A DNA stretch of 60,152 nucleotides from a virus, in the IMG/VR virus record IMGVR_UViG_3300048797_000033, positions 1 through 60,152 of that record; one strand, written 5' to 3'. The notes under the pieces are model-generated. The model did no database searches, was not told the origin of the DNA, and was given only the letters and a program-made list of their open reading frames with translations. Below are positions 6,243-56,567 of this stretch, piece after piece (within the stretch, counting starts at the first letter, position 1; every line of letters begins with the position of its first letter). A program made the position numbers and the translations under genes.

Positions 6243-6254
6243 TAGATAAGTAAC

Positions 6255-6273: not shown

Positions 6274-6311
6274 AAGCAAGTGACTGATAATTAAAGATAA
6301 GATGATGTAAT

Positions 6312-13920: not shown

Positions 13921-13938
13921 AGTGCAAATTTATTACAT

Positions 13939-14933: not shown

Positions 14934-15031
14934 AATATCCGTTTTTTGCCACAAATTAGCTTGTGTAATGAACGATTAATCCAAATTGATATATAGATAC
15001 CACTTTGACTTTATCGTGTCTTAAATCGAAG

Positions 15032-22421: not shown

Positions 22422-22444
22422 TAATTTAGACTGATTCTAAATTA
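22422..22444. promoter_or_regulatory. Operator-like palindrome TAATTTAGA-N5-TCTAAATTA
   Basis: Perfect nine-bp inverted repeat with spacer CTGAT, the most symmetric copy in the window. It sits between divergent promoters, where one regulator could control the leftward integrase series and the rightward replication operon. Confidence 0.75.
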
Positions 22445-22488
22445 CTGATATATTATCACATGAATGTAAAATGTGAATAAAATTGTGC

Positions 22489-22496
22489 TATCTTTG
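22489..22496 (+). promoter_or_regulatory. TATCTTTG element for rightward operon 22518-23894
   Basis: TATCTTTG ends 21 bases before the first ATG. The 18-base-upstream element is GTAAA instead of TTGCA, so the promoter may depend on an activator. An inverted repeat TCACAT/ATGTGA spans the -33 region (about 22456-22475). Confidence 0.6.
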
Positions 22497-22517
22497 TGGA
22501 AACATTAAAAAAAGATA

Positions 22518-22784
22518 ATGGAACCAACTGCGAACACACTTGAGGGCGTATATATTGCACCAGAAAGAGCATCAGGAAACACAACAAGAATTATTAATAA
22601 CGCTATTGAATTGCTTTTCAAAGGTGTTAGAATTGAAATAAAAGATCATCACGAAAATGGAAATAGTGATATGGCAAATAGGATTCTTGCTGATCGTATC
22701 TTAAAAAGATTGCAGTGCGAAAAACTATGCAGCCAAGAATGGATTGATTTCAACAAGGGCAAAATGACCATGAAGTTAAAATAA
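22518..22784 (+). CDS. Hypothetical protein, 88 aa
   Basis: First gene of the rightward operon. Includes IAPERASGNTTRIINNAIEL and KDHHENGNSDMANRILADRI. Looks alpha-helical and conserved-phage-like, but the family is not recognised. Confidence 0.65.
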   Translation: MEPTANTLEGVYIAPERASGNTTRIINNAIELLFKGVRIEIKDHHENGNSDMANRILADRILKRLQCEKLCSQEWIDFNKGKMTMKLK

Positions 22785-22790
22785 AACGGT

Positions 22791-23057
22791 ATGAACATAC
22801 AAATCGGTAAGTACATCGCAAAACAATCTACAGCAAACCCAAACAGATTTGATTTAGTTAAGATTGTTACTAAAAAGAGTGCAAAATTAGGAGAGTATCA
22901 AGGTGAATCAGAGGAAGGTTACGGAATGATGCTTGAAACAATAGTACAGAAAATTATTATGTCCAATCTTGCGGAACAAACAGAAACAATTGGCTTAAAT
23001 GAATTTATTGTCAAGTACAAAAAGGAACGTGACACCGTAATGAATATTTTAGGATAA
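22791..23057 (+). CDS. Phage protein with a late-region paralogue, 88 aa
   Basis: MNIQIGKYIAKQSTANPNRF, then EGYGMMLETIVQKIIMSNLA. Nearly the same framework occurs at 33563-33862 (MNIQIGDYIAKPCEGNLQRF). Pattern: MNIQIG-x-YIAK...E-GYGM-x-LE-x-IVQ-x-I-MSNL. Small, mixed alpha/beta; function unknown. Located in the recombination operon. Confidence 0.7.
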   Translation: MNIQIGKYIAKQSTANPNRFDLVKIVTKKSAKLGEYQGESEEGYGMMLETIVQKIIMSNLAEQTETIGLNEFIVKYKKERDTVMNILG

Positions 23058-23058
23058 C

Positions 23059-23526
23059 ATGCGTGAGACTAAAAGCTATGCCGAACTATACCCCGATGGT
23101 ACCCTAAAAGTATTCAGACGTGCTGAGTATTTTCAGTCGTTAAAGGTTCTATTTGGTGACAGCAAAGCTAAGTCGATCCGTGTTGAGTTGATCGTAAAGA
23201 AACTATACAAGAAGCGGTCTAATCCTCAAAACGCATATTACTATGGGGTAGTAGTTAATGATTTTGTAACAGGGCTTAAAGAGACAACAGGACAAGAAAT
23301 AACACCTACTGAAGCTCACGAACTTTTGAAAAGCAATTGTAATGCAATTGAAATACCCAATGAAACAACAGGTGAAATACTAAAGGTAGGCAGGTCAACA
23401 ACAACTCTCTCCACAGTTGAGATGGAAGAATATCTGGACAGGTGTAGACGGTTTATATTTGACTGGTTTAATATTACGGTACTTTTACCCGGGGAACAGA
23501 GTGAGATAATTTTTGAAACAAAATAA
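23059..23526 (+). CDS. NinB-like recombination protein
   Basis: 155 aa. KKRSNPQNAYYYGVVVNDF is the R-S-x-PQN-x-x-Y signature of NinB and related phage proteins; the C-terminal STVEMEEYLDRCRRFIFDWF matches the M-x-x-Y-L-x-x-x-x-x-F/W region seen in that group. NinB-type proteins act with single-stranded DNA in phage recombination. The neighbouring SSB-like gene supports this role. Confidence 0.7.
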   Translation: MRETKSYAELYPDGTLKVFRRAEYFQSLKVLFGDSKAKSIRVELIVKKLYKKRSNPQNAYYYGVVVNDFVTGLKETTGQEITPTEAHELLKSNCNAIEIPNETTGEILKVGRSTTTLSTVEMEEYLDRCRRFIFDWFNITVLLPGEQSEIIFETK

Positions 23527-23537
23527 AAAACAAATTA

Positions 23538-23894
23538 ATGGCAAATTACGAAATAACAGGTAGATTATTTGAGAAGTTTTCTACCCAACAGGTAACAGAC
23601 AAGTATTCTAAAAGAGAACTTGTTATTGAGGTTACAGAGAACAATTACACACAGCACATCAAACTCCAACTATCGAAAGACAGGTGTGCATTGCTCGACA
23701 AATTCAATGTAGGTGATGAGATTAAGGCGGTATTTAACTTAAATGGTCGTCGGTGGGAGAAAGATGGCAAGGTCAGCTATTTCAACACACTCGATGCGTG
23801 GAAACTCGACTTAATTGCAAGTGGTGGCGTTCAACAAGCAGACGAAACAAACCAACCGGAGTTTGATGATGGGGAAAATGATCTGCCTTTTTAA
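23538..23894 (+). CDS. DUF3127 single-stranded DNA-binding-like protein
   Basis: 118 aa. An OB-fold-like beta core (YEITGRLFEKFSTQQV, RELVIEV, IKLQLSKDRCALLDKFNVGD, KAVFNLNGRRWEKDGKVSYF) ends in a flexible acidic tail DDGENDLPF. The DUF3127 family and the D-x-P-F tail resemble bacterial SSB, whose tip recruits partners. Expected to coat ssDNA at replication forks and assist the NinB-like protein. Convergent with the terminase gene 15 bases away. Confidence 0.85.
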   Translation: MANYEITGRLFEKFSTQQVTDKYSKRELVIEVTENNYTQHIKLQLSKDRCALLDKFNVGDEIKAVFNLNGRRWEKDGKVSYFNTLDAWKLDLIASGGVQQADETNQPEFDDGENDLPF

Positions 23895-23909
23895 AATAAA
23901 AATGTTTCT

Positions 23910-26180
23910 TTAATACTGGAATGATTTGAAGTACTCAGCAATATTATATTTTGACTCTACTATCGTTGTATGATTAGTATTGCTAAGTTCTTTATCTCCA
24001 AGTAAACAACCGAGGTAAGCTGACATTGCATCGAAGTTGGTCAAATCTGTAACCCCTAGAATACTAATACATTCCACAAGTAAGTCCTCTAACTCCATAC
24101 GTTCAGCGTGCATATTTAAGTCATCACGTATTAGGTTGAAGCCAGCCTGTTTTGTCGTTAAATTAGCAAAGTAACCGGCTACCGTTTTCTCTACACCATT
24201 TTGGTCTAACGGATAAAGCAAATACCCATCAAAACCGTTATCAGTGAAATATTCATTGACGTTATTTAAATTGTTCTCGTTGTAGGCAAGCGATCCGTAG
24301 AGAATACAGAGTTTAAGCATGTCCTCGCAGAAATCTGCTACCAATGGAGGCTTGTGACTGTAATAAACCACTTGTTTTGCTGTTTTCCATTTTGACACAG
24401 GTATATTGTCCGTATCTATTCTCATATCACGTCTCATGCGTAGCCCTATACCACCTTTAGAGTATCTGTTTCCTGTTGGGTTGTCTAACTTAAAAGTATC
24501 AGCAGAGGCGATGAAACGCTCTGTTTCTGGGTATTGTACTCCGTCTATTATCCTCCACCTATTCTGTTCGTTTGGCTCAGGAATATAAGAGGCGATAAAG
24601 TGTCCTTCTTCTTTGAATATCATCGCTACCTTACCACCAAAGTTACTCTCCCATGCTAAATCAAACCTACGTGTCATAGATTTGCCAAAACGTAATTCAG
24701 TGATCCGGCTCTCAATTCTCTCGTTAGGGAATATATTCGATGAAGCGGGGGGAGTAAAGGCATCCCGGAAGCATCTTGGGTTCTGACGTTTTAGCTGTGA
24801 TCGCTTATCTTCATCGGCTCCGACAAGTAGGCTTTGAAGGTATTCGTCTGCGCCTATTTTGGGGTTCATACCCTTTGATTTTAGATATTCCTGTTGAACT
24901 GGTGTAGGTTTATCAGCTATTGGATATCCATACTGATCCATAAAATCAGGAAAACAGTCTTGCGCTCTGAAATTCACGGTTAGTAACCCAGATATAGTCT
25001 GACCACTACCTGTCCGTTGGTGGAATTTGGATTGCTTGCATAATTTTAAAAACTTAATACCTGATTCTCTGTCCATTTGCTCTACAGTACTGGCGTAGAG
25101 CATGATACCATCTATATGTTCTCTTTCAGATAGTGCTAATTTTACCGTCTGTGTTCTCTGTACTATGTCTTGTGATTCTAGTTTTCCAACTTCGTCGCCG
25201 ATGTAATAAGTTAAACCAGATCCATCATAATGTACGTCCTTTGCGGACGTGGCGAAGTCTATCCAACTTGATAGTGTCGTTTCTGGATCATCGCTAAAGA
25301 ACTCTAATTTCTCTTTCGGGTCGATAGCCCTGAATAGCGGTTTAAAGAATACAGGATATTTCTTAAACTGAAACATGATGTGTTCGATAAATACCTTCTC
25401 GCTGCTGTTTTCAGATTCAGCCTGTAGCCCAAAGTGATTTTCAATTGATCTGGTGGCGAGTTCCAGGCAAAATGCCGCTGCCTTGCTGGTGTCTCCCACA
25501 CGACGGGGTTTAACCGATGTTATGCCATAAAAAACCCTACGCCCGAGGTCAATCATTTCGTAGGTTCCGTCTGGCTCAGGTATGGCTATTCCGTCTTTAT
25601 CTAATTTGGCGAAAGTCCTTGTTTCGAGTATAGCCCAGTTGTATGCAATCCCGAACCTCCTATCCCTATCACGGTATTCTAGCATACGTGCCTTTGGAAT
25701 AAAAGAGAAGTTGATGTAAAACCAATAACTCGGTGAGAAGTAAATAGGTTTACCATTTATTAAATACCATGCTCCGAAGCATCTATGATACCAACACTTC
25801 TCAATCCATTTTATTTCCTCCACATAATCGTCAGCGTGGTTTTCAAGTTCCTCCCAGAAGCTATTTATTATGTTGAGTTCTATTTTAATAGATGTCTGTT
25901 CACGTTTTTTGATCGCCTTCTCTTTTGCCCGTAAATGTTTCTCTAATGAGATAAGTCGGGGTGGGATTGTTTCACGTACAAATATTTGTTCTTCTGGTGG
26001 CATACCATAGTAGTACATTTTACTGTGGTCAGGAAAACAAGTAGGGTGTTCTTTGCCAAAACTATTATAGGTACGCTGTATCAGGTCTAATATATCTATC
26101 TTGACTCCCATCCCATTGGGTGTCAAGTCTTTATCATCATTGATAATTACAAACTTTTCACAAGGTTCGTAGGAATACAT
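23910..26180 (-). CDS. terL: Terminase large subunit
   Basis: 756 aa. The ATPase has a Walker A-like VKPRRVGDTSK (residues 223-233, a Ser/Asp variant) and Walker B LTYYIGDEVGK (323-333, catalytic Glu at 330). Further on, FIASADTFKLDNP resembles the first acidic residue of the RNase H-like nuclease. The size matches large terminases of Bacteroidota phages. It powers packaging and cuts the concatemer. Unusually it is on the strand opposite the portal and capsid, read in a leftward unit with its own promoter. Confidence 0.88.
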   Translation of the reverse strand: MYSYEPCEKFVIINDDKDLTPNGMGVKIDILDLIQRTYNSFGKEHPTCFPDHSKMYYYGMPPEEQIFVRETIPPRLISLEKHLRAKEKAIKKREQTSIKIELNIINSFWEELENHADDYVEEIKWIEKCWYHRCFGAWYLINGKPIYFSPSYWFYINFSFIPKARMLEYRDRDRRFGIAYNWAILETRTFAKLDKDGIAIPEPDGTYEMIDLGRRVFYGITSVKPRRVGDTSKAAAFCLELATRSIENHFGLQAESENSSEKVFIEHIMFQFKKYPVFFKPLFRAIDPKEKLEFFSDDPETTLSSWIDFATSAKDVHYDGSGLTYYIGDEVGKLESQDIVQRTQTVKLALSEREHIDGIMLYASTVEQMDRESGIKFLKLCKQSKFHQRTGSGQTISGLLTVNFRAQDCFPDFMDQYGYPIADKPTPVQQEYLKSKGMNPKIGADEYLQSLLVGADEDKRSQLKRQNPRCFRDAFTPPASSNIFPNERIESRITELRFGKSMTRRFDLAWESNFGGKVAMIFKEEGHFIASYIPEPNEQNRWRIIDGVQYPETERFIASADTFKLDNPTGNRYSKGGIGLRMRRDMRIDTDNIPVSKWKTAKQVVYYSHKPPLVADFCEDMLKLCILYGSLAYNENNLNNVNEYFTDNGFDGYLLYPLDQNGVEKTVAGYFANLTTKQAGFNLIRDDLNMHAERMELEDLLVECISILGVTDLTNFDAMSAYLGCLLGDKELSNTNHTTIVESKYNIAEYFKSFQY

Positions 26181-26202
26181 AAGCTACGTTAATTGGTCAC
26201 TG

Positions 26203-26233
26203 CAAAGATAGTTCATTTCTGCGTGAAAGCCAA
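26203..26233 (-). promoter_or_regulatory. Promoter for terminase gene
   Basis: On the minus strand TTGGC, 18 bases, then TATCTTTG, ending 22 bases upstream of the terminase ATG. It lies inside the 3' end of the neighbouring small gene, so the terminase can be expressed independently. Confidence 0.7.
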
Positions 26234-26419
26234 TAGCACGACCACGCTGTCTATGTCTACCTCTTTATCCTGTGATTTTAACTTAGCCATCCCTTCTACT
26301 AATAGATATTCTTTTATCTGATCTAAGTCACATCCATCAAAATAACGTCTAGCACGCACGTTTAAATGACATGTATCGCCTTGTTTGTCCCATACGTTGT
26401 ATTCGTCAACAATAATCAT
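26213..26419 (-). CDS. Hypothetical protein, 68 aa
   Basis: MIIVDEYNVWDKQGDTCHLN start; RARRYFDGCDLDQIKEYLLV follows. Probably a small alpha/beta protein. Its end overlaps the terminase promoter. No family. Confidence 0.6.
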   Translation of the reverse strand: MIIVDEYNVWDKQGDTCHLNVRARRYFDGCDLDQIKEYLLVEGMAKLKSQDKEVDIDSVVVLLAFTQK

Positions 26420-26589
26420 AGCATCATTTCTAATAGTTCGTCAACAATAGTTTCGGGTATGTAAACCGTTGAATCGGGTGGTTGATTATTAATTCGTCTC
26501 AGACTGTCCGTGAACTCAAACCAATTCTTCCATCCGTTAATCACAGCCCAGCAATTTTTTACCTCTAAAGAACTCTTAAATTTTAACAT
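26416..26589 (-). CDS. Small hypothetical protein, 57 aa
   Basis: MLKFKSSLEVKNCWAVINGW start, then DSTVYIPETIVDELLEMML. Its stop overlaps the next ATG by four bases. The HNH endonuclease gene just upstream ends within its first codons, consistent with insertion of that gene next to it. Confidence 0.5.
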   Translation of the reverse strand: MLKFKSSLEVKNCWAVINGWKNWFEFTDSLRRINNQPPDSTVYIPETIVDELLEMML

Positions 26590-27338
26590 AGTGAGTTTAG
26601 GTTTAGTTCAAATTTATTATCATTGAAATTAAAATGAGCAAAATCTTGGAAAAAATAAGCAGCCCAAAAATCATACACGTGAGCAGCTTCTTCTGCTGTT
26701 TTAAAATATCCTAAAAATGTATCTTTATTATTTGATCTTATCCTTGCCGAGTATAACCCAAATTCCATTTTATATGATACGCCCTTAAATGTGCTTGATG
26801 ATGGAGTAGATTTTTTCAGAGCATTCCTTGTGTTTTGTGGGCATGTACATATTCTTAAATTACATTTTCTGTTATCCAATCCATTATGATTTATGTGATC
26901 AATATGAATACTTTTATCCGTAATTCCCAGTATTAGTCTATGCAGTAAAGAAGACTCTCCATTTTTTAGTTTTCTTGAATCCCTAGATGCGTACCATATT
27001 TCACTTTTATTGCCACACTTTATAGCATGCCACTTAAATGATGAAACTATGTCATAATCATCCCTATCTATTAGTGTCCATTTATTTTTGGATAATTGAA
27101 TCCATACTGAATTATCATCAATATCATCAGGCCTAATTGGAAAATTAAGTTTTCTCCCTAATTTATTATCAATAACATATTTATCATACTCCCTTGCAGC
27201 TTCTATTTTTTCATAAAAATAACCTAAAATAATGTTTTTGAAATTAATCATTATGTGTGATATATACATAGTTCCACACTTATTTAACATGACTCCTATA
27301 TATTTATCATTATCAATGACAACCTTTTTCCTTATCAT
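26583..27338 (-). CDS. Homing endonuclease, AP2-HNH-AP2 type
   Basis: 251 aa. The central HNH domain reads SSLLHRLILGI, then IHIDHINHNGLDNRKCNLRI, with the catalytic H and N residues visible. The C-terminal AP2-like DNA-binding segment is SSTFKGVSYKMEFGLYSARI, then DTFLGYFKTAEEAAHVYDFW. The N-terminus also carries a partial AP2-like element (ILGYFYEKIEAAREYDKYVI). Free-standing selfish endonuclease; it overlaps the next gene by seven bases and is not expected to serve phage structure. Confidence 0.9.
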   Translation of the reverse strand: MIRKKVVIDNDKYIGVMLNKCGTMYISHIMINFKNIILGYFYEKIEAAREYDKYVIDNKLGRKLNFPIRPDDIDDNSVWIQLSKNKWTLIDRDDYDIVSSFKWHAIKCGNKSEIWYASRDSRKLKNGESSLLHRLILGITDKSIHIDHINHNGLDNRKCNLRICTCPQNTRNALKKSTPSSSTFKGVSYKMEFGLYSARIRSNNKDTFLGYFKTAEEAAHVYDFWAAYFFQDFAHFNFNDNKFELNLNSLC

Positions 27339-27342
27339 AATT

Positions 27343-27657
27343 CTACCCCTCTCGTTTCGATTTAATATACCCTGCCATTAAAATTGCGTAATTAGCCAAA
27401 TCCAACAGCGTATCTTCAACTTTTTCATTGTCGACAAGTAATACTCCACTTGACACAAATGATGCAACACGTGACATCTTATCGCTCATTCGGGTTAAGA
27501 ATCCTACTTCTGGATTAATACCGTATTGTTCGATAATTTTAAAGTTAGCAAATGTGTCTGTTTGTGAAGCGGTATAGTCGTGGTTTTTTGACTTGAATAA
27601 TGCTTGCATCTTTTCAAAACAAGCTGTTTGATAGGTGATAAATTCGTTATTGTTCAT
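27343..27657 (-). CDS. DUF1599-like / MazG-type protein
   Basis: 104 aa. KSKNHDYTASQTDTFANFKI, RMSDKMSRVASFVSSG and VEDTLLDLANYAILMAGYIK match the all-alpha nucleotide-modification-associated domain (DUF1599, related to MazG-type NTP pyrophosphohydrolases). E/D residues in EDTLLDLANY would hold magnesium. A likely role is dNTP housekeeping. A near-zero gap joins it to the upstream gene. Confidence 0.8.
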   Translation of the reverse strand: MNNNEFITYQTACFEKMQALFKSKNHDYTASQTDTFANFKIIEQYGINPEVGFLTRMSDKMSRVASFVSSGVLLVDNEKVEDTLLDLANYAILMAGYIKSKREG

Positions 27658-27658
27658 A

Positions 27659-28207
27659 TTATTTTGAGTAATAAGGGTCAGGTATTTTTAAATTTTTATC
27701 GGCTATGGAACGGGCTATGTGCTCTGGACGCAACCTTAATTTGTCAACCATAGACGAATAAAGAGCCTTTCGGAGTGCATTTTCATTATCACCGAACAAA
27801 TTAACTTCGATTTGTTTTAGGTCATCACTGATATTGTTGATATTTTCACGGATAACCTTAACCAGTTTTTCGTCTGTTTCACTCATTGACCTTGACACCT
27901 GTGCTGATAACATCTGCTGAAAAGCGACATAGCGTATCATGTCTGGGCTACCGAGTGAGATAATGTAGTCGATGATGATTTTATTAGCTTCTTCATCCTT
28001 ACCGAGTAGCATGTCCTCTACTTCTGGTTCAAAGGTATCGTCGAACTCAAAACCAGCCATGATTGCGCTTTCACGTTTTCTCTCGAAATAGTCTTGATAT
28101 TTTTTACGGTTTTCAGAGTTGAAGTTGTACATGTAAACGCAATACTTATCGAGTTTATCTTTGTCGATATAACTTGGTTCGGGTTCTTCTTTTACTTTTT
28201 TAGCCAT
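27659..28207 (-). CDS. Hypothetical protein near terminase, 182 aa
   Basis: Helical and charged. A Lys/Glu/Pro N-terminus (MAKKVKEEPEPS) precedes a helical region (YNFNSENRKKYQDYFERKRE) and a C-terminal SSMVDKLRLRPEHIARSIAD. Position in the terminase unit and helical character would suit a small terminase or packaging accessory, but no helix-turn-helix is clear. Function is unassigned. Confidence 0.65.
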   Translation of the reverse strand: MAKKVKEEPEPSYIDKDKLDKYCVYMYNFNSENRKKYQDYFERKRESAIMAGFEFDDTFEPEVEDMLLGKDEEANKIIIDYIISLGSPDMIRYVAFQQMLSAQVSRSMSETDEKLVKVIRENINNISDDLKQIEVNLFGDNENALRKALYSSMVDKLRLRPEHIARSIADKNLKIPDPYYSK

Positions 28208-28578
28208 TATAGATTTATTTCAAGTTCAATATCCCAAATTTTAAACATGTTTTGAAGTTCGTGCAAGTATGTTTTAAAGCATAGTATATTGTCCATAAAA
28301 TAGACGCAAACCTGTTTATTGTTTAATATTTCGATCATTATATGATCCTTATAATTGAAATATTTTCTAAATCCATTTACATGGTGGAATGTTATACCGC
28401 ACGCCAAAAGTATTTCTTCTGTAATCGGAATAGGTTCTATGTTTTTGTAGCCAGTTTTTAGTTTTGAATGTTTAAGTTTTATTGATACTGTATTTTGGAA
28501 TAGAATTTTAATTGTTCCAATTCTACCAAATTCATCCTTAACATAATTCCCAATCCTTAATTCGTTTGCTTTAACCAT
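28207..28578 (-). CDS. LRIGNYV-type conserved phage protein
   Basis: 123 aa from the ATG of MVKANELRIGNYVKDEFGRI at 28576-28578; a longer version would overlap the GroES-like gene deeply. The KANELRIGNYV start followed by beta strands and EPIPITEEILLACGI is common in uncharacterised Bacteroidota phage and prophage proteins. Function is unknown. Confidence 0.75.
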   Translation of the reverse strand: MVKANELRIGNYVKDEFGRIGTIKILFQNTVSIKLKHSKLKTGYKNIEPIPITEEILLACGITFHHVNGFRKYFNYKDHIMIEILNNKQVCVYFMDNILCFKTYLHELQNMFKIWDIELEINL

Positions 28579-29353
28579 AAATAACTCCATTTCTTTTAAT
28601 ATACAAAATGTCTCTGCCCAATATCGGGACGAGTGTTCCAAAATATTTATTCAGTCCGTTATCCATAGCGTGTGCTGCGTACTTTTTAAAATGTATAATG
28701 TCCGAAACCTGAACGTCCATATCCATAGGTTCATACATGTAATCACCGTTTTGGTTATAGCGTTCCATGTACTTGGTGTTCTTTTTACCCACGTATTTAA
28801 CGAGAGCGTGGTCAGTCTCCTTATCTACCATGTAAGCTCCGATACCTTCTTTTTTGAATATTGGCTCGGCTAAGATATATCCGTTGATAGGGATAAGATA
28901 GTCAGGAATATTCATTGAGACGGCATTGCGTATGTCATTTACGTTACCTGAGAAATTCTTTATCTTACAGTAAATGTCAGAATAACGAATATAATAATAG
29001 GTGCATCCCTCGCAGACGATGAAGTTACCACTTACCACCGATGGCTGTAAGTCGAAGTAATTGCATACCACGGTGTCTCCAACCTCTAACTCTACTGTGG
29101 TCTCCCATTCGCTGAATTGTATGCGTGAGTCCCTGTCATGTGGTTTAGTGCCGAAGATTATCTTGTCTGGTACTGCAACGACCTGATTGATAACCCCGAT
29201 ATATCGGAATGCGTCTTTAGTGAAATCAATATCAAGTTTTAGTTCGATGTCTTTTGTGAGTTGATATTTTGACCTGTCCTCCAATGATTTAATAATAACC
29301 ATGTTATTTTGAGGTCGCAGAGATAAAAGTTCTTCTTTGGTAAGTTTTATCAT
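28571..29353 (-). CDS. Two-domain GroES-like protein (phage co-chaperonin candidate)
   Basis: 260 aa containing what appear to be two copies of the GroES fold. Copy 1 (about 12-130): LRPQNNMVIIKSLEDRSKYQ, FRYIGVINQVVAVP, VELEVGDTVVCNYFD, YYYIRYSDIYCKIK. Copy 2 (about 150-257): LIPINGYILAEPIFKKEG, DHALVKYVGKK, MDVQVSDIIHFKKYAAHAMD, LVPILGRDILYIKRNG. Each follows the GroES order of first strand, V-V-x-V-G, V-GD-x-V-x-F and a final D-I-L-x-I-K. T4 gp31 is a known phage GroES that helps fold capsid protein; a similar role is an inference. Confidence 0.6.
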   Translation of the reverse strand: MIKLTKEELLSLRPQNNMVIIKSLEDRSKYQLTKDIELKLDIDFTKDAFRYIGVINQVVAVPDKIIFGTKPHDRDSRIQFSEWETTVELEVGDTVVCNYFDLQPSVVSGNFIVCEGCTYYYIRYSDIYCKIKNFSGNVNDIRNAVSMNIPDYLIPINGYILAEPIFKKEGIGAYMVDKETDHALVKYVGKKNTKYMERYNQNGDYMYEPMDMDVQVSDIIHFKKYAAHAMDNGLNKYFGTLVPILGRDILYIKRNGVIYG

Positions 29354-29601
29354 ATAATTACTGTCTTTCTGAAATATTTGTGGTTTATGTTTGTGATTTC
29401 ATGTGATTCCGTAGTCTCTGTGATCTGTTCTCTGACTACGCTACCTTCTTTTATGTTCTCTACCTTAGTTGTTTTCTCACAGACCGCACGAATACAGTCG
29501 GGAGACAGCTCGGTAAGACTTACACAGTTTACCCCGACCTCAAACCAGTCGAAGTGGTCTTGGTCGATGAAATTATAGTCGACACGCCATAGTTTTTCCA
29601 T
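29350..29601 (-). CDS. Hypothetical protein, 83 aa
   Basis: MEKLWRVDYNFIDQDHFDWF start; beta-rich middle with NINHKYFRKTVII at the end. Four-base overlap with the GroES-like gene. A TATCTTTG at 29606-29613 on this strand lies almost at the ATG, implying a very short leader if used. Function unknown. Confidence 0.65.
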   Translation of the reverse strand: MEKLWRVDYNFIDQDHFDWFEVGVNCVSLTELSPDCIRAVCEKTTKVENIKEGSVVREQITETTESHEITNINHKYFRKTVII

Positions 29602-29646
29602 AGCACAAAGATAAATAACAAATAAGCAAAAAGCTATTCTGAATGC

Positions 29647-29669
29647 TAATTTGGAATCGTTCTAAATAA
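29647..29669. promoter_or_regulatory. Operator-like palindrome before portal promoter
   Basis: TAATTTGGA-ATCGT-TCTAAATAA, two bases away from the TTGCA of the portal promoter. Same design as the site at 22422-22444, with minor arm mismatches. Lies between divergent leftward and rightward genes. Confidence 0.65.
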
Positions 29670-29671
29670 TC

Positions 29672-29702
29672 TTGCAAATTTTTAAACTAATGACTATCTT
29701 TG
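29672..29702 (+). promoter_or_regulatory. Portal promoter
   Basis: TTGCA, 18 bases, then TATCTTTG, ending 19 bases before the portal ATG. A full match to the window-wide consensus. Confidence 0.8.
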
Positions 29703-29721
29703 TAGAATCAAATATAAAGAC

Positions 29722-32187: not shown

Positions 32188-32188
32188 T

Positions 32189-32653
32189 ATGGATATAATT
32201 AAAGCCATGAGGGACGCACAGCAAGCAATTATGCTAAGCAGGGCAGTGTTTGGTGTAGATACCACAGGGTTTGCACAGCGAAGCAGGAGCCTACTTCTTA
32301 GCAATGTTCATCAAGGACAAAATGGGTTCATAGGTAATAAAAGATATACAGACTTAGGTCAGTCAAGTACAGCCATTACTAGGTCATTAGGTGTTGGTAC
32401 AAGGGGAATACCAGATGGAACTCCCATTCCGTGGTATGTTAAACCGTCAGATCAAGGATTTGTTATGCAGCCGCTTGGCGACCCTAACGCCAAAGTAAAT
32501 CTCGGTTTAGATAAGGCATTTGCGGACTACGTTTCGACAATTGGTGTTACAGAAGCCAATAAACTTAAAAATCCATTAGCTTATCAACAGGCACAAAGAG
32601 AGTTTGCAAAAAGAGTTAACATAAGACCGATAGATAATTACGCCAAGCAATAG
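32189..32653 (+). CDS. Hypothetical virion-region protein, 154 aa
   Basis: Start at ATG 32189-32191, two bases after the portal stop; a longer ORF from 32054 is an artefact overlapping the portal. Contains FGVDTTGFAQRSRSLLLSNV and GTPIPWYVKPSDQG. Probably co-translated with the portal and perhaps a structural or adaptor component; no family recognised. Confidence 0.65.
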   Translation: MDIIKAMRDAQQAIMLSRAVFGVDTTGFAQRSRSLLLSNVHQGQNGFIGNKRYTDLGQSSTAITRSLGVGTRGIPDGTPIPWYVKPSDQGFVMQPLGDPNAKVNLGLDKAFADYVSTIGVTEANKLKNPLAYQQAQREFAKRVNIRPIDNYAKQ

Positions 32654-32673
32654 TTTAGAATCATTCTAAATTA
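32651..32673. promoter_or_regulatory. Operator-like palindrome before 32.7-kb promoter
   Basis: TTTAGA-ATCAT-TCTAAA core (extended TAGTTTAGA/TCTAAATTA), overlapping the stop codon of the previous gene and lying ten bases upstream of the next promoter. Confidence 0.65.
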
Positions 32674-32683
32674 CTATTACCTA

Positions 32684-32714
32684 TTGATTTACGTTTTTTA
32701 TAGTTATATATTTG
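32684..32714 (+). promoter_or_regulatory. Promoter for 32732-33025
   Basis: TTGAT, 18 bases, then TATATTTG, ending 17 bases before the ATG. Confidence 0.65.
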
Positions 32715-32731
32715 TGGCAAATTAAAACGAT

Positions 32732-33025
32732 ATGAAAAAAGTAAAAGGATTTTTAATAGTAAATATTATTATTACGGTGTTTCTATTGATAATGTTAAGT
32801 AACTATATGGTGAAATTTAAATCATTAGAAAGACAAGTTAATTCGTTATCTAATGAAAATATTGGAATCATTCACGGGCTTATGTCTATTTCTATTATTC
32901 AGAAAAAACAAGACACAATAAACTCACAACAATTAAACATTAATCAATTACTATCTGTAAAAAGCACAAAAAAGAAAGAAGAGCATTATACGCTCAAATG
33001 GATTGGTGGAAGACTGGAAAAATAA
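32732..33025 (+). CDS. Membrane-anchored coiled-coil protein (spanin-like candidate)
   Basis: 97 aa. Residues about 6-27 form a transmembrane helix (GFLIVNIIITVFLLIMLSNY) after a basic start; then a helical region (FKSLERQVNSLSNENI) and a basic C-terminus. This topology resembles Rz-type inner-membrane spanins or other phage membrane accessories. No lysis gene is recognised nearby, so the lysis role is only a possibility. Confidence 0.55.
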   Translation: MKKVKGFLIVNIIITVFLLIMLSNYMVKFKSLERQVNSLSNENIGIIHGLMSISIIQKKQDTINSQQLNINQLLSVKSTKKKEEHYTLKWIGGRLEK

Positions 33026-33070
33026 TTAATCAATTTGAAAATAAAATAAGCTAATGAACGCTTTATTTTG

Positions 33071-33078
33071 TATCTTTG
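33071..33078 (+). promoter_or_regulatory. TATCTTTG element upstream of 33152
   Basis: TATCTTTG without a matching TTG at 18 bases. A terminator-like hairpin lies 28-57 bases downstream, before the first ATG, so transcripts from here would have an attenuator-like leader. Confidence 0.5.
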
Positions 33079-33105
33079 AGTCCTCAGAAGCTTTGAATTT
33101 AATCT

Positions 33106-33137
33106 AAGCGGGTGCAGTACGACCTACACCCGCTTTT
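33106..33137 (+). terminator. Terminator-like hairpin in a 5' leader
   Basis: AAGCGGGTG and CACCCGCTT form a nine-bp stem around a 12-base loop, followed by a short TTTT run. It terminates transcripts from 32.7 kb or attenuates the following gene. Confidence 0.7.
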
Positions 33138-33151
33138 AAAGTTACACTAAT

Positions 33152-33346
33152 ATGATCAACGTAATTCCATTAGACGATATTGAAGAACATTCAGCTTCGG
33201 GGTGTAGGTGTAAACCAACTGTTTATTTTGTAAGCGACAGATGTATTATAATTCACAACTCTTTTGATGGAAGAGAAATAATTGAAAAGCTAATTTCTGA
33301 CATGAAAATTAAACCCTCAACAAATTGGGAGGTTAATTATTACTAA
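33152..33346 (+). CDS. Conserved small phage protein (HNSFDGRE type)
   Basis: 64 aa. Contains EHSASGCRCKPTV and CIIIHNSFDGREIIEKL. The C-x-C-x-P...HNSFDGRE pattern recurs in small phage and bacterial proteins of unknown function. Read from a leader that contains the 33106-33137 hairpin. Confidence 0.75.
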   Translation: MINVIPLDDIEEHSASGCRCKPTVYFVSDRCIIIHNSFDGREIIEKLISDMKIKPSTNWEVNYY

Positions 33347-33371
33347 TTTATTTTGACAAAACAAAAAACCT

Positions 33372-33560
33372 ATGGCAACTAAAATAAGATTAATACCCAC
33401 ACTGGAAGGTAAGACGGCAAAGGACTTCGTCGAAAAGGCTGATAGGAATTTAGCAAAGGTGCGGGCATGGAACAAAATACCAGAAAAGTGCTTTGTTTGC
33501 CAAAACGCATTAACAGATATTTGTCACGAATGTATTAATTATCCATTAAAGAAAGCTTAA
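33372..33560 (+). CDS. Cysteine mini-protein, 62 aa
   Basis: The C-terminal half has CFVCQNALTDICHEC, giving C-x2-C-x7-C-x2-C, a compact zinc site like those of the early proteins at 8767-8967 and 9149-9280. The N-terminus is basic. Function unknown. Confidence 0.6.
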   Translation: MATKIRLIPTLEGKTAKDFVEKADRNLAKVRAWNKIPEKCFVCQNALTDICHECINYPLKKA

Positions 33561-33562
33561 TA

Positions 33563-33862
33563 ATGAACATTCAAATCGGTGATTACATCGCAAAACCATG
33601 CGAAGGGAACCTGCAAAGGTTTGATCTTTTTAAAAAGACAGTAACAACTAAGAAAACAGGCGAAAAAGTAGATTCCGAAACCAATGAGGGATATGGAATG
33701 TCGCTCGAAAACATTGTTCAAAGAATAATGATGAGCAATTTATCCGAAAATAAATCAACAGTAGGATTGAATGAGTTTATCATTGAATACAAAAAGGAAT
33801 ATGGAAAGATAATGAGTATTTTTGATCTCAATAAAACACAGAAACCTTCTCCTTCTGAATAA
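33563..33862 (+). CDS. Paralogue of the 22791-23057 protein, 99 aa
   Basis: MNIQIGDYIAKPCEGNLQRF, then GYGMSLENIVQRIMMSNLSE, clearly related to the early-region 88-aa protein but with a longer, Lys/Pro/Ser-rich tail. Two copies in oppositely timed regions suggest specialised roles. Two-base gap after the upstream gene. Confidence 0.7.
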   Translation: MNIQIGDYIAKPCEGNLQRFDLFKKTVTTKKTGEKVDSETNEGYGMSLENIVQRIMMSNLSENKSTVGLNEFIIEYKKEYGKIMSIFDLNKTQKPSPSE

Positions 33863-33879
33863 GTTGAAATAAATATTAT

Positions 33880-33910
33880 TTGCATTCATTCTAAATAATA
33901 ACTATCTTTG
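33880..33910 (+). promoter_or_regulatory. Promoter immediately before HNH gene
   Basis: TTGCA, 18 bases (including a TTCTAAAT half-site), then TATCTTTG. It ends only three bases before the ATG at 33914, so a transcript would be leaderless or start within the first codons. Confidence 0.65.
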
Positions 33911-33913
33911 AAT

Positions 33914-34450
33914 ATGGAACTTATTGAACTTGGAGAAAACCTTGTTGTAGATAAATCTAAATACAGCAAAGCAGTAAAAGAACTCAATAAGTTTCTTAAA
34001 GATTATGGATTGAGCAAAACTAATTTGCATTCATCTATATTTAGGTATGCGAAAATAAAATACGGTATTTTATTGAATGGAAAATCTGAGCTAGAATATC
34101 AGATATGGTTTGTTAATAAATTTCAGATAACCAAAAGAACAGAGGTAAAAATACAAAAGCACAAATTTGTAAGCAACTTTACTCCACCGAGTAGAAAATT
34201 GGAATATTGGGAATTTTTACAAACTTCATATTGGTTTGGTATTAAAGATTTAGTTCTCAGGAGAGACAAACACAAGTGTATTGCTTGCGGATCAAAGAAA
34301 TCATTACAAGTGCATCACAAGGTCTATACTCACCGATTTTCAGAACATAAACACTTAGATGACTTAGAAACATTATGCGGAGATTGCCATAAATTCGTTC
34401 ATAGTATAGATGAAAAACAAATGATAGAACAACATTTGAACTCAATCTAA
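33914..34450 (+). CDS. HNH endonuclease
   Basis: 178 aa from ATG 33914-33916; a TTG two codons upstream overlaps the promoter. The C-terminal HNH domain has KHKCIACGSKKSLQVHHKVY (CxxC, HH), then LDDLETLCGDCHKFVHS (N/D-L-x-x-LC-x-x-CH). The N-terminal 110 residues are helical and may bind DNA. Could be a homing endonuclease or help terminase cut the genome, as HNH proteins in some tailed phages do; its place before scaffold and capsid fits either. Confidence 0.88.
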   Translation: MELIELGENLVVDKSKYSKAVKELNKFLKDYGLSKTNLHSSIFRYAKIKYGILLNGKSELEYQIWFVNKFQITKRTEVKIQKHKFVSNFTPPSRKLEYWEFLQTSYWFGIKDLVLRRDKHKCIACGSKKSLQVHHKVYTHRFSEHKHLDDLETLCGDCHKFVHSIDEKQMIEQHLNSI

Positions 34451-34482
34451 AATTCCTTATTTTTATTTAGTATAAATAAACC

Positions 34483-34513
34483 TTGCATTAAATTCTAAAT
34501 AGATTTATCTTTG
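34483..34513 (+). promoter_or_regulatory. Promoter for scaffold-capsid unit
   Basis: TTGCA, 18 bases containing the half-site TTCTAAAT, then TATCTTTG. Followed by a structured leader of about 115 bases before the scaffold ATG. Confidence 0.75.
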
Positions 34514-34526
34514 TAAATTAAATACG

Positions 34527-34605
34527 GAGTGGCGTAGTTTTGCGCTCAATTCCTTATTTAGAATAAGACTAAATTAAAATAACAATCTGTTTGACTGTCC
34601 CACTC
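34527..34605 (+). promoter_or_regulatory. Structured 5' leader of scaffold gene
   Basis: GAGTGG (34527-34532) pairs with CCACTC (34600-34605), enclosing a CTTATT-TAG-AATAAG hairpin (34553-34567). The sequence CGGAAGC follows the closing stem; the same string occurs near the end of the leader at 39628-39721. A role in translation control or RNA stability is possible. Confidence 0.5.
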
Positions 34606-34633
34606 GGAAGCTAAACACAAAAAACCTAAAAAT

Positions 34634-35788
34634 ATGGCACATATCGACGACCTTTTAAACGACGTAAAACCCGGTGACATCGCAGAAGATGTAAGACCTG
34701 ATAATATAGTAAACACACCTGCCGATCCACCACAGGTAGAGCCGCCCGCAGATGATACACCTGCCGATCCACCTGTAAGTGACGAAGTGGTAAGTTGGTT
34801 TAAGTCACAAGGTATTGAAGGAACCACACGTGAAGATTTTATCCCTCATATTGAAAAGGCAAAGAACTTTGACCAAGAGGTCAACAAATACAAACCTTTA
34901 GAGACAGAGGTACAGACGCTAAAACAGCGTGAAGCCGACATGGCTGAAAAGATGAACGCATTGAAAGACCTTGCAGACCCTCTCAAAATATTTGGTTCGG
35001 AAGACGAATACAAAGCTGCACTATTAAAGAAACAACACCCCGAACTCGACCCTAACTCTTTGATGCAGGTAATGACCAAAGAATTAAGTGCCGACCCCAG
35101 ACAGGTGTTAAAGTTACAGTTCAAGTTAAATAACCCAGAGTTCAGCGATAGCCAGATTGAGGGACATCTAGCAAAGAAATATGGGTTTGAAGACTTTGAA
35201 TCAGATTTTAACGACATTGAACCCCAAGATCAAGTCAATATAAAGATAGCAGAGAAAGAAGCACGTAAGGAATTCAACACCCTAAAGGAAGGGGTAAAAG
35301 TTCCAGAGGTGATTGACATCGACGCTTATCTAGGCAACAAAAAAATCCAGACGAAGGAAAGTCTGGAGACGCTACAGAACGCATGGGAACCGCTTGTGAA
35401 GACCATACCCGGGCAGTTAGACAAAGTAGTCATTTCCGAAGGCGAGAATACTATCTTTGAATTTGCTATCGACGAGGACTTCAAGAAAGGCGTGACGGAG
35501 AACATTGGCAACACCAAGCAATGGCTAATCAGTCAGGGCTTAGAACCCAATGCAGAGAACACCAAGCAGACAGTACAGAATCTGAAGGATTACTATTTAC
35601 ACCAAAATTTGGTTAAAATAATGAATGCTTACTCTTCACAGAAGGTTGTGGAGGCTGAGATCGCATTTAAAAAAGGAATAGATAATCCAACGCCAGCTAA
35701 TACAAGGTCTACTCAACGTGTTTCCCCAGAAGCGCAGTCCGAAGAGAAGTTCTATGATAATGTTTTGGCAGACATCAAGGGTAAATAA
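34634..35788 (+). CDS. Putative scaffold protein
   Basis: 384 aa, directly before the capsid gene. Acidic N-terminus with Pro-rich tandem motifs (PADPPQVEPPADDTPADPPV), then a long coiled-coil segment (YKPLETEVQTLKQREADMAE). The C-terminus is charged and Lys-ended. Acidic, helical and capsid-adjacent is the usual profile of phage scaffolds, which guide shell assembly and are then lost. Confidence 0.7.
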   Translation: MAHIDDLLNDVKPGDIAEDVRPDNIVNTPADPPQVEPPADDTPADPPVSDEVVSWFKSQGIEGTTREDFIPHIEKAKNFDQEVNKYKPLETEVQTLKQREADMAEKMNALKDLADPLKIFGSEDEYKAALLKKQHPELDPNSLMQVMTKELSADPRQVLKLQFKLNNPEFSDSQIEGHLAKKYGFEDFESDFNDIEPQDQVNIKIAEKEARKEFNTLKEGVKVPEVIDIDAYLGNKKIQTKESLETLQNAWEPLVKTIPGQLDKVVISEGENTIFEFAIDEDFKKGVTENIGNTKQWLISQGLEPNAENTKQTVQNLKDYYLHQNLVKIMNAYSSQKVVEAEIAFKKGIDNPTPANTRSTQRVSPEAQSEEKFYDNVLADIKGK

Positions 35789-35819
35789 CATATTTATTTA
35801 CTAAAAAACATATAAGTTA

Positions 35820-37274
35820 ATGGCAACAAATAACTTAGTCACTGGAGGAGCGAATACTTCCCAGATAATGAGTTTAAGGGACTTCCAAAAGAGACCCGAT
35901 ATTACCGACGAGCTTCACAAGCTCTACGGAAAGGGATATGAGCTGATTAATTTATTTCATAACTCCCCCGGACGTGTTGAAGTCATGTCAAATGAATCCT
36001 GTTCCGGTGAAGAAGAAAACTTCACATGGAGAACACTAAAACTGGGTGCTACCATTACTAAGGTAACCACCGTAGTTTATACTATCACTCTTGATGCAGC
36101 CGAACTCGACGATCAGAACAACTTCTTCCCACGTGTGGGATTCTCTGTAATGATAGGTAACACTATCACAGGATTTACGGAATGCCGTATCGACTCTATC
36201 GACGTCACTACTCCTGCTACACCCGTCTTGACTATCAAGTCATACAGCTCAACAGCTCCTACATTGGATGCTCAGGTATCAGCCGGAAACCTTGTCACAG
36301 GTATCGAGTTACCTATCACAGCATCTGCTTTTGCCGTTGGAACACATGGTACTACTCCTACCAACCTCGGTTCGGTACAACGTACGTTCTATGCTCAGAT
36401 TATGAAAGAAGCTTTAGGATTTGACGGTATGGCTATGGCACAGATGAAATGGCAGACATACAACGAAGGCACTAAGTTCTTCAACAAGGAAATCACCCGT
36501 GGTGAGTTTATGCTAGAGATACAACAGGAACAAGCCTGTGTCTTTGGTCAGCTTAACACCGAAAACCTCACACAGACCTCAGTCATGAGTGGTGCTGCCG
36601 GACTTATCGGTAAGACACAGGGTATCTGGGACTGGATCGACCAGTTGGGTGGTGACATCCGTATAGGTGCTAGTGGTGTAGGTATCGACGACCTTACCTC
36701 TGTAGAAGGTTATATGGTACAAAAAGGTTTACAAGACACAGTAGTTGCTTGTTATGGTGGTTACTCTGCTTTATCTAAGCTGATGGCTAATTCCAACGCT
36801 AAGATACAGGGAACTTCTGGTGGTTTGGCAGGTACTCCCTATGTACAATCTGTTGCTGATAAACTCTATGGTGGCGACACTAAGATGATTAACTTCAACT
36901 TGCAGTACATCAAGATGAGTCACATCACTTTTGTACTCATTCCTTCTCCGCTATTCTCTAACCCTACTATGATGGGTACTGCTAACACTAAGTTGGATGA
37001 CGCTATCATGTTCATCCCTTTAAATCAAGAAGCAGTGACTATCGACAGGAAAAAGGTAACTGTACCGAACTTGCGTAAACGTTACGTAGGATTAGGTGCT
37101 TACTCTCGTGAACGTATCTGCGGTATGTTGGCCGGTATGGACGGATATATGAATCAGACAATGCGCTATCCAATTATAACAGACGTTGACGGTTCAAACG
37201 TACACTGGACTTCACATACAGCTTATGAGTTATACGGTGCATTTAGGGGAGTATTAGCAACCAGAAGTTCGTAG
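35820..37274 (+). CDS. Major capsid protein
   Basis: 484 aa, following the scaffold after 31 bases. Thr/Gly-rich with beta strands, and motifs seen in large Bacteroidota phage capsids: GYELINLFHNSPGRVEVMSN near the start and GLGAYSRERICGMLAGMDGY near the end. A strong terminator follows. An HK97-type fold is expected from gene order, not seen directly. Confidence 0.75.
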   Translation: MATNNLVTGGANTSQIMSLRDFQKRPDITDELHKLYGKGYELINLFHNSPGRVEVMSNESCSGEEENFTWRTLKLGATITKVTTVVYTITLDAAELDDQNNFFPRVGFSVMIGNTITGFTECRIDSIDVTTPATPVLTIKSYSSTAPTLDAQVSAGNLVTGIELPITASAFAVGTHGTTPTNLGSVQRTFYAQIMKEALGFDGMAMAQMKWQTYNEGTKFFNKEITRGEFMLEIQQEQACVFGQLNTENLTQTSVMSGAAGLIGKTQGIWDWIDQLGGDIRIGASGVGIDDLTSVEGYMVQKGLQDTVVACYGGYSALSKLMANSNAKIQGTSGGLAGTPYVQSVADKLYGGDTKMINFNLQYIKMSHITFVLIPSPLFSNPTMMGTANTKLDDAIMFIPLNQEAVTIDRKKVTVPNLRKRYVGLGAYSRERICGMLAGMDGYMNQTMRYPIITDVDGSNVHWTSHTAYELYGAFRGVLATRSS

Positions 37275-37301
37275 TCTAAAAATAAATTTGCATATCTAAA
37301 G

Positions 37302-37333
37302 AGTAGGGGTGTAAAATCCCCTACTTATTTTAT
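37302..37333 (+). terminator. Terminator after major capsid gene
   Basis: AGTAGGGG and CCCCTACT form an eight-bp perfect stem around TGTAAAAT, followed by TATTTTATT. Placed to set high capsid expression apart from downstream genes. Confidence 0.8.
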
Positions 37334-37381
37334 TAACCTGTCGTTTATCGCATTCCGATAAATTACACAAAACCTAAAGTT

Positions 37382-38461
37382 ATGATTGACATTGATGGCG
37401 AAAGAGTAAAACTCGATGCCAAGTACAAAGGAACAGACGAATTGTTGGTAGCTTTTGCAAAGGCACTGACGCAGATCAACAACCACTTCGACAGGTATCC
37501 ATCTTTCAGACTTAAATGGGCTGAGAAATATACCAATAAGAACAAAGCCACAGGCAAACTGGAACCAAAGGCAGCAGCTATCGTACGTTTTGAATCAGAG
37601 ATTAATATAGGTATGGGAAACCATGTCGTTAACTACTATGAGAACAAACGAGTAAAAGACAACGAGACTATCTACGTCCCACACAGCGAGCTGTTCGATG
37701 GTAACATGATCTTTACTCGCAAAGACACCGAAAGACTTGCTTACTACCTGGTCTGTGAGCCACGTCTTAAGAGCGGGATGATGCTTATCGAAAACATCGA
37801 GGAAGATGCTTCGAAACTGGCAGTAACCAGAGGCCAGAATGCAGACCTGTTGTTCTATATTTACTCTGATGCTTCACCACTCGACGAAGCAAGAATGAGG
37901 GTTATTGCGTACAACTGGGGTATTGACATAACCAAATTTGCAACGCTTGAGTTGCTTAAAAACCAGTTGTATAATACCATTACCGCTGAAGAAGGTAGGA
38001 AACTGGGAGTTGCTATTGCAGAGTTCAAAAAACAAACAATGGGGCTTACGGACGAAATGAAGGCTGTTTCCCTTGTTTCGCAGGGTGTTTACAAAAAACT
38101 AATCGAGTTCAATCACGCTGAATCAGCATGGTTCTGGAAGGGCGACAAAGATGAACCTATCTTAAGAATCCCAGTGAACGAGCGAAGTGATGAAATGCAG
38201 ATTCGTAAACGTCTTGCTTCGTTTTTAATCGCTTCTAAAAAGCTATATCTATTGCAGGAAGCATTAGGTATCACAGAGGACGAGGATATGAATGAAACAT
38301 CTATTGACGTCAAACTGGATAAGTTTACGGACTTTGAGAAGTTGTCATGGGTTGAATTGAAACGTGCTTTGAAAAAAGGAAATGTAGCGTTTGATAAAAC
38401 AGACAAGATGCCGAGACTTATTGAACTCTGTAAAGAAGCGTTTGGAAACGTGGAACCTTAA
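37382..38461 (+). CDS. Hypothetical virion-region protein with HeH/SAP-like C-terminus
   Basis: 359 aa. No family recognised for the main part, which includes YVPHSELFDGNMIFTRKDTE and a helical middle. The last 40 residues (LSWVELKRALKKGNVAFDKT, then DKMPRLIELCKEAF) resemble the small helix-extension-helix motif used in DNA or protein contact. Gene order suggests a head-completion or capsid-decoration role. Confidence 0.6.
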   Translation: MIDIDGERVKLDAKYKGTDELLVAFAKALTQINNHFDRYPSFRLKWAEKYTNKNKATGKLEPKAAAIVRFESEINIGMGNHVVNYYENKRVKDNETIYVPHSELFDGNMIFTRKDTERLAYYLVCEPRLKSGMMLIENIEEDASKLAVTRGQNADLLFYIYSDASPLDEARMRVIAYNWGIDITKFATLELLKNQLYNTITAEEGRKLGVAIAEFKKQTMGLTDEMKAVSLVSQGVYKKLIEFNHAESAWFWKGDKDEPILRIPVNERSDEMQIRKRLASFLIASKKLYLLQEALGITEDEDMNETSIDVKLDKFTDFEKLSWVELKRALKKGNVAFDKTDKMPRLIELCKEAFGNVEP

Positions 38462-38480
38462 TTAGAATCGTTCTAAATTA
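38460..38480. promoter_or_regulatory. Operator-like palindrome overlapping a stop codon
   Basis: ATTAGA-ATCGT-TCTAAAT, five-bp perfect core arms plus partial extension; starts in the stop codon of the previous gene and precedes the promoter at 38501 by 20 bases. Confidence 0.6.
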
Positions 38481-38500
38481 CTGAGATACACCAATTAAAC

Positions 38501-38531
38501 TTGCATATTAGGTTTGGTTGGTGTATTTTTG
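38501..38531 (+). promoter_or_regulatory. Promoter for 38550-38780
   Basis: TTGCA, 18 bases, then TATTTTTG, ending 18 bases before the ATG. Confidence 0.7.
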
Positions 38532-38549
38532 TGTTAAAATATAAACGAT

Positions 38550-38780
38550 ATGAAAGCACAAGAAGCATACGAAAGAACAATTAATAGTGAGCTAAATACG
38601 GTTTACCTTGAAATACAGGATGCAATAAACGATGGATGTCTGAAACTTTTAACTAATAGACTATCAAAACAAACTGTGAATAGGCTATTATTAGAGGGGT
38701 ATGATGTAACAAAAGATAAAACTCCATCTGGTAAAAAACTATCATTGGTAGATTGGGATATGAATAAAAGAATTGATTAG
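38550..38780 (+). CDS. Small hypothetical protein, 76 aa
   Basis: MKAQEAYERTINSELNTVYL, then EIQDAINDGCLKLL and LSKQTVNRLLLEGYDVTKDK. The I-x-x-AI-x-x-G...L-x-x-x-GY-x-V pattern is shared by small phage proteins of unknown function. It is the only ORF between the capsid-side genes and the RNA unit, and has its own promoter and operator-like site. Confidence 0.65.
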   Translation: MKAQEAYERTINSELNTVYLEIQDAINDGCLKLLTNRLSKQTVNRLLLEGYDVTKDKTPSGKKLSLVDWDMNKRID

Positions 38781-38795
38781 ATTGATTCTAAATTA
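38774..38795. promoter_or_regulatory. Operator-like palindrome before RNA-unit promoter
   Basis: TTAGA-TTGAT-TCTAA core (GATTAGA/TCTAAATTA), overlapping the stop of the 76-aa gene and ending ten bases before the TTGCA of the RNA-unit promoter. Confidence 0.6.
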
Positions 38796-38805
38796 CACCC
38801 AATAC

Positions 38806-38836
38806 TTGCATTGACTAAAAAATTGTCATACATTTG
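38806..38836 (+). promoter_or_regulatory. Promoter of the noncoding RNA unit
   Basis: TTGCA, 18 bases, then TACATTTG. The predicted start falls next to a perfect TTCCAC-AC-GTGGAA hairpin at 38844-38857, a natural 5' cap for a stable RNA. Confidence 0.75.
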
Positions 38837-38935: not shown

Positions 38936-39009
38936 GGGTCACTAGCTCAGTTGGTAGAGCATCTGTTTTGCAAGCAGAGGGTCTTGAGTTCGAATCTCAA
39001 GTGTATCCA
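38936..39009 (+). tRNA. tRNA-Ala(UGC)-like gene
   Basis: D-arm GCTC-AGTTGGTA-GAGC; anticodon arm TCTGT-TTTGCAA-GCAGA with anticodon TGC; T-arm TTGAG-TTCGAAT-CTCAA. Acceptor GGGTCAC pairs with GTG-T-ATCC if one base is bulged; the stem is otherwise mismatched in the middle, so charging or function may be altered. First element of the noncoding unit. Confidence 0.8.
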
Positions 39010-44712: not shown

Positions 44713-44728
44713 TCGGTATAAATAAAAA

Positions 44729-56549: not shown

Positions 56550-56567
56550 AACCAGTCTAAATAACTA

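Follow-up and report, generated by a model that had tools for sequence, protein, structure and literature searches.

Purified Fur of Riemerella anatipestifer, a member of the Flavobacteriales, binds the Fur box ATTTAGAATTATTCTAAAT in gel shifts (PMC5609570). A variant of this box occurs at rhuB (PMC10986502), and the bidirectional rhuH/rhuR promoter is derepressed when its Fur box is mutated (PMC11967795); together, the evidence in this species comprises gel shifts and derepression in fur and Fur-box mutants (PMC5609570, PMC10986502, PMC11967795). Here we analyse a viral window of 60,152 nucleotides (the whole stretch examined, positions 1 to 60,152 of IMG/VR virus record IMGVR_UViG_3300048797_000033) in which copies of a 23-base palindrome, TAATTTAGA-N5-TCTAAATTA, lie beside promoters of both strands. 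The 17-base core of this element, TTTAGAATnATTCTAAA, is a palindrome centred on a single base and matches the R. anatipestifer Fur box. We consider it probable, judging from the sequence, that the palindromes are copies of the Fur box of the phage's Bacteroidota hosts and that early as well as late promoters of the phage are controlled by the host's Fur or by a near relative in the Fur family, such as PerR. The likeness to R. anatipestifer extends to a 19-base palindrome, ATTTAGAATnATTCTAAAT, to a location near start codons and to the presence of one box common to divergent promoters (there rhuH and rhuR-rhuA). Whereas the R. anatipestifer box controls host iron-uptake genes, the boxes described here are found at early and late phage promoters.

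The original prediction had listed six palindromes, all of which we recovered at their places, but it had missed three further sites with two mismatches each (13966-13988, 34554-34576 and 6308-6330) as well as weaker boxes at 7068, 44706 and 56545. Scanning for the 23-mer with up to three mismatches yielded nine matches in the window, compared with a mean of 0.22 and a maximum of three in 100 dinucleotide shuffles. The core at 32654 matches at all 16 specified bases, that at 22425 has one mismatch, and those at 13969, 29650, 34557, 38461 and 38776 have two each. The 7-1-7 palindrome TTAGAATnATTCTAA with ATT/AAT flanks, a feature of Flavobacteriales Fur boxes, is present in the window. With a scoring matrix trained solely on boxes of other phages, the window being excluded from training, 11 window sites outscored everything in 50 Markov shuffles and four more scored at levels expected 0.02-0.08 times per shuffle. 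Of the 14 best sites, ten lie wholly or mostly in the approximately 12% of the window that is non-genic by called genes; 44706 and 56545 are partly coding, and 6311 and 13969 fall inside the 3' ends of genes. The boxes, with their scores and their distances to the -7 element, are as follows.

6253-6275: weaker box; score 10.4; 37 bases before the -7 element of the leftward promoter at 6242
6308-6330: second, degenerate box; score 15.2; overlaps the 3' end of the winged-helix gene; 92 bases before the -7 element of the leftward 6242 promoter
7068-7084: variant box with GGA/TCC arms; score 16.9; no canonical promoter within 100 bases
13966-13988: box absent from the earlier list; score 27.4; 36 bases before the -7 element of the leftward promoter 13955-13925
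22422-22444: box with no mismatch to the 23-mer; score 28.4; common to divergent promoters, with the -7 element at 47 bases rightward and TAATATTG at 47 bases leftward
29647-29669: box; score 27.4; between divergent promoters, 28 bases from the -7 element of the portal operon (plus strand) and 36 bases from that of the leftward operon starting at 29601 (minus strand)
32651-32673: box with the perfect core TTTAGAATCATTCTAAA; score 31.6; 36 bases before the -7 element of the promoter for 32732 onward
33879-33895: degenerate full box; score 17.9; inside the promoter at 33880, 7 bases before the -7 element
34554-34576: box; score 19.7; downstream of the promoter at 34483, before the gene at 34634
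38458-38480: box; score 26.1; 46 bases before the -7 element of the promoter for 38550-38780
38773-38795: box; score 19.1; 36 bases before the -7 element of the promoter upstream of the tRNA-Ala/tail region
44706-44722: weak box; score 11.2; 29 bases before the -7 element of the promoter at 44729
56545-56561: weak box; score 15.7; 29 bases before the -7 element of the promoter at 56568

The window promoters are of the Bacteroidota type, TTG-N20-TAnnTTTG, and six of them are listed below; the -7 element leftward of 22425, TAATATTG, departs by one base and was identified by direct reading of the sequence.

6211-6242, minus strand: leftward promoter TTG-N21-TACATTTG
13925-13955, minus strand: leftward promoter TTG-N20-TAAATTTG
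29672-29702, plus strand: promoter TTG-N20-TATCTTTG of the portal operon
32684-32714, plus strand: promoter TTG-N20-TATATTTG
38501-38531, plus strand: promoter TTG-N20-TATTTTTG
38806-38836, plus strand: promoter TTG-N20-TACATTTG

With distances counted from the last base of the 17-base core up to the -7 element, most recognisable promoters on either strand have a box at 28-29, 36-37 or 46-47 bases, and one (33879) at 7 bases; location in promoter regions at defined positions is a feature of Fur boxes. The cores fall into spacings of 28 (29650, portal promoter), 29 (44706 and 56545, both weak), 36 (32654, 38776, 13969 on the minus strand and 29650 leftward), 37 (6256, minus strand), 46 (38461) and 47 bases (22425, rightward), and very weak boxes before the promoters at 5237 and 34506 also stand at 29 bases. 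In place of the loose gap of 2-30 bases to the promoter that had been proposed, the distance from box to -33 element takes few values, about 5-6, 13 and 23-24 bases. Half-sites had been reported within the spacers of three promoters: those at 56568, which also has a weak full box just upstream, and at 34483, which otherwise has only a very weak upstream box, were confirmed, whereas the third, at 33879-33895, scored as a degenerate full box. Promoters at 39611, 46466, 26210 and 10794 have no box. The box-linked promoters serve leftward genes as well as rightward structural genes. Chance AT-rich palindromes or transcription terminators might be invoked, since the window is AT-rich and the box at 38458 adjoins a terminator-like hairpin; the excess over shuffles, the spacing to the -7 element and the independent matrix refute this explanation statistically, and we regard its probability as negligible.

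The same site occurs in bacterial genomes, where 117 of 119 loci carrying TTATTTAGAATNATTCTAAATAA are intergenic. TonB-dependent receptors of heme and siderophore types account for 13 of the 117 adjacent genes, compared with 14 of 664 others (p=3e-5), and the box also neighbours three genes of the FUR family, sodA and streptococcal genes for heavy-metal P-type ATPases. Four Flavobacterium genomes carry near-perfect copies before sufS, and such copies also precede hemA, the latter with a divergent AraC-type gene beside the box (Flavobacterium psychrophilum included); both genes were named from their translated starts, and hemA also through a GlutR match. The box is therefore found upstream of iron and heme genes in Bacteroidota, as expected of a Fur box, and at these host genes it stands preferentially 7-9 or 27-30 bases from the -7 element.

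The published PerR-box consensus NTANAANNATTNTAN (B. subtilis and streptococci; PMC3458967) is satisfied by the window core, and the PerR box has the same 7-1-7 geometry (PMC3458967, PMC4487405). PerR differs in governing a peroxide regulon and in its typical arms, TTATAAT rather than TTAGAAT. The streptococcal P-type ATPases beside the box resemble PmtA; pmtA is directly repressed by PerR in group A streptococci (PMC4487405), and S. suis pmtA is not bound by PerR (PMC3458967).

Other bacterial copies stood in different contexts. In six loci from Bacteroidales (L173, L184, L232, L238, L244 and L245), the same 23-base palindrome is found approximately 300-430 bases before dnaA, sometimes with extended G+C arms, a context that is not that of iron genes. 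The Dysgonamonadaceae metagenome-assembled genome (MAG) Nc350_bin116 carries at least eight copies in similar repeated intergenic sequence (L134, L144, L170, L171, L177, L221, L223 and L240), resembling a dispersed repeat. In two Bacteroidota MAGs (L200 and L246), genes resembling LuxR-type response regulators lie directly 3' of Fur-like boxes.

Among viruses, TTTAGAATNATTCTAAATNA is present in at least 120 contigs and is nearly always intergenic. In 46 virus records, each selected for holding a box, we counted 103 boxes (up to two mismatches), compared with nine for the reversed pattern. In viral contigs and prophages (for example, Flavobacterium sp. 1355, L256 and L260), the -7 element follows the box mainly at 15, 35-36, 45-46 or 56-57 bases, and a single box often sits between divergent promoters at 15 and 35 bases; the window spacings of 36-37 and 46-47 resemble the 35-36 and 45-46 favoured in this set. 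Eight loci from Bacteroidota phages (L065, L090, L096, L117, L120, L143, L185 and L260) have a conserved divergent pair served by one common box, consisting of a tail-fibre-like gene and a gene for a membrane protein of 65-77 amino acids with a His-rich stretch. Searches with the portal and capsid proteins for relatives in which promoter conservation could be followed yielded only near-identical relatives, relatives about 25% identical, or none.

The viral set also bears on the proposal that the palindromes are LexA/SOS sites read by S24-type repressors of Bacteroidota. Some window sites have RGA-N5-TCY arms, similar to those of the known LexA box GGA-N5-TCC (PMC8565304), which shares with our element the fixed five-base spacer, a phylum-wide distribution and phage-like regulators. 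However, nearly all window arms are AGA/TCT, and arm substitutions in GGA/TCC abolished LexA binding (PMC8565304). A G in both arms, as in the LexA box, is found only at 7068. The control palindrome with GGA arms, TTTGGAATNATTCCAAA, lacks promoter geometry: across 80 viral loci it has no centre preference and no fixed spacing, and a -7 element occurs in four of its 120 usable flanks, at four unrelated distances, compared with 89 of 467 flanks for the AGA box. Upstream of dinB-type genes, 12 Bacteroidota genomes yielded no clear box, and the other LexA motif, CTAA-N5-TTAG, orders its arms differently. We judge LexA to be a highly improbable reader.

A single palindrome, a small set of spacings, promoters on both strands (early on the minus, late on the plus) and two boxes that each serve divergent promoters fit, in outline, the idea that one dimeric regulator would control early and late genes. 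This part of the original prediction holds up as a reading of the sequence; the phage-encoded readers that it named are not supported, and the regulator is most likely not phage-encoded. No FUR protein was found in any of the 47 box-bearing virus records, the window included, whereas all 17 Bacteroidota genomes tested encode one. In nine sampled box-bearing phages and prophages, BLAST and phmmer detected no protein family in more than five and no common phage transcription factor, with the proviso that strongly diverged proteins could escape. The winged-helix protein (6312-6641) and the small helix-turn-helix (HTH) proteins (7831 and 10573) had no recognisable homologue in any fetched locus, other box-bearing phages included, although strongly diverged regulators could again be overlooked; the structure model of the winged-helix protein (predicted local distance difference test, pLDDT, 52) was too poor to use. 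Together, these results make a host-encoded regulator the simplest reader. The HTH-like proteins at 7831-7992 and 10573-10743 are paralogues of 53-56 amino acids with the pattern IKK.KL.H..I...FGF..V.SFR....

Dispersed operators read by a phage's own repressor have a precedent in the stoperators of mycobacteriophage L5. A phage-encoded dimeric regulator of this kind (the winged-helix protein, one of the HTH proteins or the product of another gene), acting like a temperate-phage repressor at multiple operators, would account for the many copies of one operator across the phage genome, for the boxes at 6253 and 6308 that adjoin the winged-helix gene and for the phage-wide set, and the window does encode a tyrosine recombinase (21419-21985). 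Unlike the L5 sites, however, the same box is common to many dissimilar phages and to host iron genes, and the candidates lack recognisable homologues in the fetched loci. A cognate regulator encoded by the box-carrying phages, the hallmark of repressor operators, was not found among the nine sampled phages and prophages, within the limits for diverged proteins given above. A phage-encoded reader is accordingly improbable.

The original prediction had also allowed for host regulators, and the evidence points there: the sequence is that of the published Flavobacteriales Fur box, and among host regulators Fur is the best candidate reader. Several observations weigh against this assignment. Most fur genes inspected, in Flavobacterium and six other genomes, have no box, and autoregulation thus does not confirm Fur as the reader. 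The centre base is C or G in 92 of 119 viral boxes, compared with seven of 21 host iron boxes (p=1e-4); the centres in the window are likewise mostly C/G, whereas that of the R. anatipestifer box is A/T. Viral spacings (15, 35-36, 45-46 and 56-57 bases) differ from those of hosts (7-9 and 27-30), the window mixing both sets, and the distances also depart in part from those in R. anatipestifer. Among the nearest cultured relatives of the window, elemoF, Maribacter phage Panino and Tenacibaculum phage Gundel_1 have no box, and a further eight phages, cultured or named, show 0-2 weak matches each (isolated, with two mismatches); box arrays are not universal in such phages. The 10-11-base periodicity of the viral spacings is modest once similar promoters are merged (31 clusters, nine of them at 35-36 bases; p about 0.02-0.04), and we therefore do not use helical phasing as a main argument.

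The centre preference and the partly unlike spacing lower our confidence in Fur and make a related but different host regulator possible. Such a protein would recognise a Fur-like palindrome and chiefly activate transcription, from sites in helical phase (about -35, -56, -66 and -76), as CRP does at class II and class I promoters. CRP promoters of these classes have discrete upstream spacings, and the boxes resemble them in standing at discrete distances, about 10 and 20 bases apart, upstream of promoters; the protein family and motif are different, and any activation here is putative. The absence of a 25-base class from the viral spacings fits this alternative, as do the promoters of the 15-base class, in which the box takes the place of the -33 TTG, and the deviant phage sites, which swap A/T for G/C near the centre. 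There is no candidate host protein, however, the 17-base core is that of a proven Fur box, the window also contains the host-like spacings of 28-29 and 7, and the phasing is modest. We consider a different host regulator rather unlikely.

With Fur as the preferred reader, we infer its binding, the direction of control and its titration as follows. A metal-loaded host Fur dimer, or a close relative such as PerR, would bind the boxes, and early and late phage promoters would thereby follow cellular iron (or redox) status. Repression by metal-loaded Fur seems likely for boxes at 7 and 28-29 bases, because host iron-uptake genes carry Fur sites there. At 36-37 and 46-47 bases, where the box lies upstream of a mostly complete promoter, activation or looping would be as likely as repression. 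As replication multiplies the boxes, Fur may be titrated during infection, relieving both phage and host iron promoters. A broader version, in which host Fur (or a near relative) serves numerous unrelated Bacteroidota phages as an activator or timing switch from phased upstream boxes, with replication titrating Fur, coupling the lytic programme to iron and derepressing host iron uptake, is conceivable, and we advance it tentatively.

The site itself is already known as a Fur box; its systematic use at Bacteroidota phage promoters appears undescribed in the open-access literature searched, outside which most subscription journals lie. Searching that literature for the literal motif returned nothing, and the R. 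anatipestifer box was recognised on later reading. The arrangement suggests a link between viral gene expression and the iron status of the host cell. If host Fur reads the boxes, phages of a major bacterial phylum would express their genes according to the supply of iron; this would matter for phage-iron ecology and would provide a case, open to testing, in which unrelated phages have borrowed a single host regulator.

Other genes of the window encode a cytosine-5 DNA methylase (14190-14954), the tyrosine recombinase-like protein mentioned above and a DNA/RNA non-specific endonuclease (12914-13561). A tRNA-Ala gene (TGC; 38936-39008) lies just downstream of the box promoter at 38806.

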